DNA of 36,514 nucleotides from Bacilli bacterium. Its GTDB lineage: Bacteria > Bacillota_I > Bacilli_A > RF39 > UBA660. The position numbers were made by a program, and so were the translations under genes. The notes under the pieces are model-generated. The model worked only from the letters and a program-made list of their open reading frames with translations, had not been told where the DNA came from and searched no databases. The stretch covers positions 1 to 36,514 of the forward strand of contig JAQVNR010000003.1 of assembly GCA_028703035.1 (NCBI GenBank), written 5' to 3'. Shown piece by piece: positions 2,314 through 17,311 of this stretch; within the stretch, counting starts at the first letter, position 1; the number at the start of each line of letters is the position of its first letter.

Positions 2314-2687
2314 TTGCTTTCAATAAGACCTTAGCTCATCTCAATACCACGGCTCATTTTCTTCTTTTAAAATATGATTCATATGATAAGATTAGGTAAG
2401 TTTTTATACCACATCCATGTATATGCCATTATACAAAGTATTAAACTTTGAGACGGATAGTAAAAATTACTTTGCACTTATATTAATAGGCTAACCTATT
2501 TTAAACTCAATATTAAATAGGAATGTTCACGAATCAATCAGACAAAGAATAACTAAAACATTATTAACAAAAGCTCAGCTGTTGCTTATAAAAAGTAAAA
2601 GAAGTAATCGATAGTGATATAGTAGATGCATTAATCAATTATAGGTTAATTTAAAGTTTTAGTAAAATAGAACAATAAATTTATTTC
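2314..2687. other. Gene-poor stretch with decayed coding traces
   Basis: No intact gene is visible. AATAGG-CTAA-CCTATT at 2485-2500 is a small hairpin. Short stop-broken stretches around 2520-2655 (for example a piece ending DIVDALINYRLI before TAA) look like protein remnants spread over two frames, but I cannot name a family. Confidence 0.35.
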
Positions 2688-2746
2688 TGAAAAGTGTATA
2701 TTAAAACTCTTGAAAAGTGTATATTAAAACTCTTAAAAAGTGTATA
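2688..2746 (+). repeat. Tandem 23-bp repeats ending in a TATAAT box
   Basis: Two exact 23-bp copies (2688-2710 and 2711-2733) begin TGAAAAGTGTATATTAAA. A third, partial copy (2734-2746) diverges so that GTGTATA becomes GTGTATAAT, giving TATAAT at 2743-2748. The array sits 35 bases before the start codon of the DUF4143-type ATPase gene. The repeats could be tandem operator sites or promoter-strength elements. Confidence 0.75.
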
Positions 2747-2782
2747 ATGATATGGTATTATGTAAGAAAAGGAGATGAAAAA

Positions 2783-4066
2783 ATGAGTTAAAAAAAAGAA
2801 GGTTACAGTCCTCGTCTTATTGATGAAAAAATATTCAAATACTTAAATATATTTGGGGCTTTATCAATTACTGGACCAAAATGGTGTGGTAAAACTTGGA
2901 CTAGCTTAAACCATGCTAAAAGCGTAACATATTTAACTGAAAAAAGTTCAAGGGATTTAGCTAAAATAGATCCGCAATATATATTTACTGAATCTAGACC
3001 CCAGCTAATTGATGAGTGGCAACTAGTGCCTAGTATTTGGGATTCAGTGAGACACGAATGTGATAGTGATAAAAAAAAAGGGAAATTTATATTAACTGGA
3101 TCAACTTCGCTTGAAAAAGAAGACAATGAAGAAGAAGTCTTCCACTCCGGAACAGGGAGAATTGCTAATTTGAAAATGTATCCAATGAGTTTATATGAGT
3201 CTGGTGACTCTACAGGAGAAGTTTCTATTACAGATATGTTAAAAAAAGAGGTTATTCCTAAGTATATTGGAAAAGTTGGGTTAGATGAAATTGCGAACTT
3301 AATAATTTGTGGAGGTTGGCCTGAGGCAATCAATATGAATTCATCTGAAATAGGAATAATTCCCAAAATATACTTGGAGAGTGTAATTAATAATGGTATA
3401 AATGAAAGAAAGTCGGTAAAAAGAGATAGTAATAAAATGAGAATGTTTATTAGATCATTATCTCGAAATGAATCTTCTGTTGCTGGTGTAAATACAATAT
3501 TAAAAGATATAGCTGAGTTTGAAATAGAAGAGAAATTATTACAAAGTAGAGTTACAGTTGCTGAGTATACCAATGTTCTAGATAATTTACATCTAATTAA
3601 TAATCAAGAAGCGTTTTCTATAAATTATCGCTCTTCTAAAAGGGTTGGTAAATCACCAAAAAGACATTTAGTAGACCCGTCGCTTGCGTGTGCTAGTTTA
3701 GATTTATCGGTAGATAAATTATTATATGATTTAAATACTTTTGGAATTATGTTTGAGTCTCTTGTTGTAAGAGACTTAACTATTTATATGGATTATCTAG
3801 ATGGTCGTATATTTTATTTTAGAGATAATACATCTGGTGATGAGGTTGATGCAATACTTGAGTTTAGTGATGGAAGTTATGCGGCAGTCGAAGTTAAACT
3901 TAGCTCATATTCAATTGAAGAAGCTAAAATCAGTCTTCAAAAATTTTATAATAATGTTTCAAAAAAACCAAAATTTATGTGTATTATAGTTGGGCATTAT
4001 GAAGCTGTGGTTTATGATAAAGAAAATAATATATATATTATTCCTATTACTTCATTAAAACCTTAA
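2783..4066 (+). pseudogene. DUF4143-type AAA ATPase with a stop at codon 3
   Basis: A strong ribosome binding site (AAAGGAGATG, 2768-2777) precedes ATG AGT TAA at 2783-2791. After this stop the frame stays open to 4066 and encodes a full ATPase: Walker A GPKWCGKT, Walker B LIDEW, the Tyr-Pro-Met-Ser (YPMS) segment after the TGR motif, and a C-terminal DUF4143 / PD-(D/E)XK-like part ending in DEVDAILEF...AVEVK. The family is widespread and accessory, with poorly defined roles. The first usable in-frame start after the stop is GTG at 3026, which would lose Walker A and B, so a truncated product could not bind ATP normally. The lesion is one base from a sense codon, so it is recent or a sequencing error. 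Without the stop the protein would be 427 residues. Confidence 0.8.
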
Positions 4067-6255: not shown

Positions 6256-8781
<2,526 letters not shown>

Positions 8782-15979: not shown

Positions 15980-17311
15980 CTAATCTAAACTGTCTATTAG
16001 TTCATTAAAATCTATATTGCTTGCAAAAGGAATACCTCCATACATTCCCTTTAAATATTGATTTCTGACATTTAAATTATTTTGAATTCTTCCTTTAAAA
16101 TCAGTGATTGGCAGTAATAATTTATTACCCAAGTTATCAATATTAAAAACATAGATAGAATTTTTAGGAATATCTGTTTCTAAAAGTAAAGTGTTATGAG
16201 TAGTAATAATTAATTGCCCTTTAATACAATTTTTAATGCTATTTAAAATCTGTTCTACCAAGATATCGTGAATGCCAAAATCTAGTTCATCAATAATAAC
16301 AGTTTGCCCTGCACATGCAACAAGTAAACAAGGAAAAATTTTTAAAATGTTTTGAGTACCGGTTGATTCCAATTCAAAATTAATATCAATTAAATTATCA
16401 TAAATTAATTTTTTAAAATATAATTTATATTTTATTTTATTTTCTTCATACTCTCTTTGATAATATACTCCTTTAATATCTGAGTATAAATTTGTGAAAA
16501 ATTCATTTAATAGTGATTCGGCTTGGTTAAGATCTTTTTCTTGTTTAATAGTGATTTCCCCTTCTTCAAGGTTAGTAAGATATTTTAAACCAGTTGTTTC
16601 AAACCTTTTTTTATTTCCAATTTTGGCGATTGTACATATTTCCTGAATATAAGTTAAAAAATTAAATAAAGATTCTGAAGTTCTTTCTTTAACATAATCT
16701 TTTTTCTTATCTTCTATTTCAAAAGATAGTATTGAAAGAAAAGAATGTTTTCCCCAATATTTTTCTAAAATAAGATAAAATTCTGAAAAGAAATTCTTGT
16801 CAGTAAATAAATTATCATTAATTGTTATTTTATTACCTTTAGATAGTTTAAAACAAAAAGTTTTATTTGTATTAATGGCATAGTCTAAACTTTCATTTAC
16901 TATTTCATTATCGTTCATTTCAATTTTATAAACGGCATCTTTATTATTAATTTTAAAGCCAAATTCTAAGACCATATTTTCTTTTGAATCAATAGTCTTA
17001 TAATTAGCTATAATTTCTTCTATGCCCTTATAGCTTTCTTTTAGGTATTTAAAATAATCGTTTATATGCTTTGAAATATGATTATCATCAGAATTATTAA
17101 ATTGTTTCATTATATCTTTTAGCATTTCACTAGATGACATTGTGCGAGTTGTTTCGTAAAGCGTATAAAATGCAGTAGCAAAATTAGATTTTCCAGCTCC
17201 GTTTTCACCATAGATTAATATTAAATCTTTAGGACGGTTTCTTGTTCTCATAAAATCTACTTCTAAATTAGTTAGTGATTTATAATTTTTTAATTTTATA
17301 TATTTAATCAT
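15980..17311 (-). CDS. AAA (SMC/OLD-like) ATPase of a defence-type two-gene operon
   Basis: This 443-residue, complete, ABC/SMC-type ATPase has an N-terminal strand IKYIKLKNYKSLTNLEVDF, Walker A GENGAGKSN (about residues 34-42), a signature region ESTGTQNILKIFPCLL, Walker B TVIIDELDFGIH with catalytic Glu, and switch His ITTHNTLLLE. Such AAA_15/AAA_21 ATPases pair with TOPRIM proteins (OLD, PARIS, RloB-type) in phage defence, where the ATPase senses infection and the TOPRIM subunit is the effector. Here the downstream partner is disrupted, so the system should be silent. TATACT (complement of 17335-17340) and AGGGAAGAGG give a minus-strand promoter and ribosome binding site just upstream. The module lies between exact 22-bp repeats and is the only minus-strand unit among plus-strand genes for more than 30 kb. 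Confidence 0.85.
   Translation of the reverse strand: MIKYIKLKNYKSLTNLEVDFMRTRNRPKDLILIYGENGAGKSNFATAFYTLYETTRTMSSSEMLKDIMKQFNNSDDNHISKHINDYFKYLKESYKGIEEIIANYKTIDSKENMVLEFGFKINNKDAVYKIEMNDNEIVNESLDYAINTNKTFCFKLSKGNKITINDNLFTDKNFFSEFYLILEKYWGKHSFLSILSFEIEDKKKDYVKERTSESLFNFLTYIQEICTIAKIGNKKRFETTGLKYLTNLEEGEITIKQEKDLNQAESLLNEFFTNLYSDIKGVYYQREYEENKIKYKLYFKKLIYDNLIDINFELESTGTQNILKIFPCLLVACAGQTVIIDELDFGIHDILVEQILNSIKNCIKGQLIITTHNTLLLETDIPKNSIYVFNIDNLGNKLLLPITDFKGRIQNNLNVRNQYLKGMYGGIPFASNIDFNELIDSLD

Follow-up and report, generated by a model that had tools for sequence, protein, structure and literature searches.

We analysed a window of 36,514 nucleotides from a Bacilli bacterium. Positions 2684–4066 of its plus strand hold a solitary candidate gene of the PDC-S01 kind, preceded by three 23-bp repeats. 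The gene copy appears to be recently inactivated (less likely mis-sequenced), and the repeats appear to be a self-specific operator that is read by the gene's own product. From the sequence comparisons below, we put the probability of this reading at about 0.72.

The start codon ATG (2783–2785) lies behind an AGGAG ribosome binding site (2770–2774). The next codon is AGT and the third is the stop TAA (2789–2791). The sequence and the ORF translation thus bear out the preliminary description, which had reported ATG AGT TAA preceded by a good ribosome binding site. After the stop, the open frame (2792–4066) runs uninterrupted for 424 codons to 4063 and ends with a TAA at 4064–4066; the long frame noticed earlier is real, and its length of 425 codons is corrected to 424 plus the stop. 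The frame would encode an AAA+ ATPase, a winged helix and a PD-(D/E)XK-like DUF4143 domain, the arrangement of PADLOC PDC-S01. The first in-frame ATG, GTG or TTG past the stop is a GTG at 3026. This codon lies downstream of Walker A, which leaves the protein without an ordinary rescuing start. The window copy is therefore not an intact coding sequence with a start codon, having TAA at codon 3 and no usable alternative start.

Pfam scored AAA_14 at 55.6 bits and DUF4143 at 98.4 bits, both above the cut-off. The P-loop ATPase domain (2858–3199) carries a conserved Walker A, GPKWCGKT, and Walker B, LIDEWQ, in agreement with the earlier reading of a DUF4143 ATPase with Walker motifs. The PADLOC PDC-S01 profile matched over its full length (E 5.5e-58), and no Rep-type domain was found in the Pfam scan. 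The AlphaFold2 model has a pLDDT of 89.6 and a pTM of 0.91. It predicts a central winged helix-turn-helix (3428–3661) made of helices 213–225, 233–241 and 250–265 followed by strands, and the order of helices and strands was the same when this domain was modelled alone. Foldseek matched the isolated domain mostly to winged-helix proteins (MarR, Fur, PadR, ORC and linker histone), each with E > 0.2 and none significant. In DUF4143, residues E322, D353 and E367-x-K369 (3755–3898) fall in invariant or near-invariant columns and resemble a PD-(D/E)XK-type signature. We read them as a putative active site, which suggests a nuclease-type effector.

Three other genes of the window deserve mention. 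Positions 524–1477 encode an HTH protein with a weak M78 (ImmA/IrrE-like) domain, which matched PADLOC RmrA and, weakly, an spr1629 antitoxin model. A 133-aa ORF between pcrA and ligA (6256–6657) is a weak match to the PADLOC candidate PDC-S04 (E 3.2e-8). An AAA_21/AbiEii-like ATPase is encoded at 15980–17311 on the minus strand, among genes that are mostly on the plus strand.

With each species represented by a single genome, 80 closest orthologs (53–75% identity) were identified. None carries TAA at the stop position. All 80 have a sense codon there, most commonly leucine in a start of the form MSL-(K/T)KE-Y, which substantiates the claim that codon 3 is nonsense while the remainder is preserved. 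To estimate the age of the stop, we used the adjoining gene pcrA, in which 38% of fourfold sites differ between the window and a sister species (G003). Neutral evolution along the entire window branch should have left about 16 stop-creating changes among the 424 codons of the gene, yet none is observed past codon 3. Neutrality over more than one quarter of the branch has a probability below 0.02. The change is therefore either young or an error, and the earlier wording of a "very recent" inactivation fits the roughly 16 stops expected since the split from G003 and the zero present.

The sister species has lost nearly all of the gene. Upstream of its pcrA (L273:1210–1290), three 23-bp units directly abut what is left of it, the final ~36 codons. 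By its sequence this is a deletion relic, in which the array outlives the gene. DNA comparison with five further genomes (G002, G004, G005, G007 and G001) recovered pcrA but nothing that matched the gene itself, in G002 specifically upstream of pcrA. The source genome has 15 DUF4143 hits; several are fragments or contain stops, and PF13635 fragments are frequent. The dead locus in the sister species and these common fragments make a real inactivation plausible a priori. The window copy thus has the features of a pseudogene: its disabling change is absent from the orthologs, and the sister species shows decay at this locus too. Genes of the PDC-S01 kind are often broken, and an early stop is the ordinary part of this locus beside its repeats.

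An error of sequencing or assembly at a T/A homopolymer boundary, with the gene in fact intact, is a possible but rather unlikely source of the stop. The genome is a draft of 105 contigs, a T-run meets an A-run at the changed site, and the total length equals that of an ortholog (L041), as a boundary miscall would give. The promoter, ribosome binding site and frame are otherwise intact. Against this, the scanned ORFs of the window include no other obviously split gene, and the dead sister locus and common PF13635 fragments speak for genuine decay. On the sequence evidence, a recently inactivated copy is most likely and a mis-sequenced intact copy is less likely.

Low-level production of full-length protein by readthrough, frameshift, slippage or a non-AUG start is very improbable. 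An A8 tract immediately follows the stop and could favour it. Weak starts may also exist within the subfamily. An in-frame ATG, GTG or TTG precedes the conserved tyrosine in 182 of 186 members, and the four exceptions are the window copy, L250, L154 and L158. L250 and L158 instead have ATT at start distance after a Shine-Dalgarno-like sequence, which could be a rare AUU start. The window copy lacks this arrangement. Its ATT and ATA codons past the stop lie beyond the invariant residues Y5 and R8, and an alternative start there was rejected as these residues would be lost. Rescue by slippage or frameshift was also rejected: the TAA precedes the slippable portion of the A8 tract, so any gain or loss of A still leaves ATG AGT TAA. 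For the same reason, and with no invertible element noticed, the switchable state suggested in the preliminary description is not upheld. The absence of the stop from all 80 closest orthologs likewise speaks against a recoded gene with a programmed stop, and against readthrough or an alternative genetic code.

The repeats at the promoter were placed in the register of the family profile. Unit 1 (2684–2706) has TGA at positions 4–6 and GTGTAT at positions 10–15, which we call the address. Unit 2 (2707–2729) has the same address. Unit 3 (2730–2752) keeps the core (TAAAAAGTGTATAATGATA) and overlaps the likely −35 box TTAAAA (2733–2738). The likely −10 box TATTAT (2756–2761), extended by TGG (2753–2755), lies 17 bp past the −35 candidate. 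These promoter elements were read by eye, and a −10-like box is present at the corresponding place in the orthologs. Positions 2688–2746 form the highest-scoring tandem array in the window (period 23, 97% match, score 111; the next array scores 60). The tandem promoter repeats seen earlier are therefore real, and the last unit runs into the promoter; their role as the conserved, gene-specific part of the locus had been missed. Two exact units occur in the 1.29-Mb genome, only at this promoter. Since there is no further exact unit and matches with three mismatches are near background, a genome-wide regulon was rejected.

The 23-bp period is a property of the whole subfamily. We collected 185 distinct homologs with a Walker A like GPKWCGKT and determined the best upstream self-match among lags of 12–44. 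The best lag was exactly 23 bp in 179 of 185 members, compared with 0 of 29 sister-type GPRQVGKT genes. A first set, scanned over lags of 15–30, had given 98 of 101. After thinning by protein identity, lag 23 was the best in 54/54 (<60%), 25/25 (<50%) and 10/10 (<40%). The window has the same arrangement: within ~175 bp upstream, its direct repeats follow one another in tandem with a period of exactly 23 bp. Arrays have 2–6 units, mostly 3–4, and adjoin or cover the −35 box. Downstream of the genes, the best lag was 23 in only 10 of 161 cases; with no comparable array in the 175 bp downstream, ends of a mobile element were rejected.

All 10 loci from records labelled plasmid or phage (Collinsella, Bacteroides, Prosthecochloris, Actinomyces, Mycobacterium, Lentilactobacillus and gut scaffolds) also showed lag 23, as did 8 of 8 held-out viral-contig loci fetched afterwards. 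The exact array of the window was not found in viral contigs. A phage origin was rejected, as PHROGs gave no match, and hits came to 7 of 50,697 phage records and 8 loci in the scan of viral contigs. Among more distant relatives, three GPRQ-type genes on Rhodobacterales plasmids of three genera (L161, L284 and L287) have 22-bp direct repeats upstream (ACTTTCAATTGGTCGG...), and this related family may use a different fixed period. A Rhizobium locus (L286) has lag 23. At seven loci (L044, L046–L049, L053 and L083), the upstream DNA contains an apparent 3′ end of another DUF4143 gene; these look like tandem gene arrays with their own repeats each.

Next to the fixed period, the sequence of the unit has a shared and a private part. 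All arrays were phase-aligned and thinned to <60% identity, with the register fitted on the same data. A7, A8, A16 and a pyrimidine at position 18 are family-wide anchors; A7, for example, has an identity of 0.98 within an array and 0.91 between arrays. At positions 4–6 and 11–15, identity is 0.75–0.93 between copies of one array and 0.24–0.40 between arrays (0.82–0.93 and 0.24–0.34 for positions 11–15). From these comparisons, positions 4–6 and 10–15 are the gene-specific address. Shared anchors around a private core are the pattern to be expected if a binding site combines contacts common to the family with a private specificity. In genomes with several such genes the address differs gene by gene, and paralogs of one genome differ in address no more than equally distant proteins of different genomes.

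We compared the address with the protein. Address similarity climbs with protein similarity (Mantel r 0.63), as descent would predict. When overall similarity was regressed out, residues 246–266 stood out, with a partial Mantel maximum at 252–266 (r 0.24, compared with a permutation maximum of 0.11). This stretch recurred in the 45–85% and 30–50% subsets and was slightly shifted in thinned sets. Residues 250–265 form the third helix of the predicted winged helix, ahead of the strands. Of ~9,700 residue-base pairs, mutual information at 80% thinning ranked two highest, both exceeding the permutation maximum (7.5): residue 254 paired with unit position 15 (z 10.2), and residue 253 paired with position 12 (z 8.2). 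At 60% thinning the 254–15 pair was barely above the 95% level, and at 50% thinning (n=25) nothing was significant. The permutations ignore the tree, so these figures count as support, not proof.

In all 43 representatives with R253, including the distant L216 and L262, position 12 is G. E253 tends to occur with C, and T, S or N253 with A. These pairings fit known side-chain preferences. The window follows the same rule: S252, R253 and V254 (3545–3553) begin helix 3, and position 12 is G in 3 of 3 units. The third-ranked covariation involves residue 347 of the DUF4143 domain (codon 3830–3832) and unit positions 4–5 (z ~6). By this signal, contacts to the remaining half of the address may come from the nuclease-like domain.

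It is quite unlikely that some other host factor binds the 23-bp repeats, which would then merely travel with the gene while the protein is not their reader. In one clade the −35 to −10 pitch is itself 23 bp (6+17), and promoter geometry could contribute to the period. However, the period of 23 persists in units without a −35-like box, for which reason mere −35/−10 geometry was rejected. Units also differ among genes of one genome, the address covaries with residues 253 and 254, and the arrays persist across phyla and gene transfer, none of which favours a host factor.

On the preferred reading, a self-specific operator, each GPKWCGKT protein would bind and autoregulate its own promoter through an iteron-like array. 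To read the address, the gene's own product would use helix 3 of its central winged helix. Several protomers would line up on the regularly spaced sites, probably arranged by the AAA+ domain, and the loaded array would set the transcription of the gene. The effect would most likely be repression, given that the last unit overlaps or adjoins the −35 box. Direct binding, cooperativity, the sign of regulation, ATP dependence, a role in defence and the cause of the inactivation are what we infer here.

Alternatively, the array could, besides being the operator, serve as an identity tag for a selfish or defence nuclease, whose PD-(D/E)XK domain would attack incoming DNA with a matching array, or for which the array would mark self. 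The conserved E322, D353, E367 and K369, the status of PDC-S01 as a defence candidate and the gene-specific address agree with this idea. It is nevertheless improbable, as every array seen was located at the promoter and arrays were rare in other places. A broader form is doubtful too, though worth stating: PDC-S01 may be a self-addressed DNA reader, in which a private array with 23-bp spacing and a residue-base code would give self/non-self identity to an AAA+ nuclease. The nuclease would be silenced or held at its own array and be released or redirected upon invasion or by a second copy with the same address.

The operator reading would give a candidate defence gene a molecular handle, in the form of a private, exactly spaced address that defines a putative binding site, points to candidate residues for specificity and implies a code that can be tested. 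A self-address, if true, would explain how several such genes per genome stay under separate control. According to PMC12988326, PDC-S01 is an ATPase fused to a PD-(D/E)-X-K superfamily domain and a putative defence candidate, and most PDCs await experimental validation. PMC12988326 and PMC13356809 report it as the fourth commonest prokaryotic defence system and as the single locus encountered most often in rumen genomes; their accessible passages make no mention of upstream repeats or a DNA address. The window gene resembles PDC-S01 in its full-length profile match and its ATPase and DUF4143 domains. It differs in that PDC-S01 is defined by the protein alone and the window copy has an early stop. 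The literature searched yielded one paper for DUF4143, which concerns Argonaute, and none for PF13635. A literature search for repeats upstream of such ATPases returned nothing relevant; subscription papers and preprints lay outside its scope, and priority is uncertain.

Among known folds, the Orc1/Cdc6 origin-binding AAA+ proteins also have an AAA+ domain followed by a DNA-touching winged helix, and they rank near the top when the model is compared by Foldseek. However, the TM-scores are only ~0.2–0.34, and the window protein has an extra PD-(D/E)XK-like domain at its C-terminus. The CRISPR ancillary nucleases Card1 and Cdn1 were matched as well, with Card1 ranked first, yet at TM-scores of 0.20–0.25, with no CARF domain found and no CRISPR link seen at the window gene.

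In iteron-autoregulated plasmid Rep genes, direct repeats spanning roughly two helical turns each stand in tandem beside the promoter and are bound by the winged-helix product. The subfamily shares with them repeats by the promoter of a predicted winged-helix gene and a repeat sequence that is gene-specific. In contrast to them, it has no replication initiator domain, no origin was seen, and it is mostly chromosomal; it carries AAA+ and nuclease-like domains, and its period is fixed at 23 bp while the core changes. The iteron-controlled rep gene thus serves as the closest working analogy for this locus, not as a family to which it would belong.
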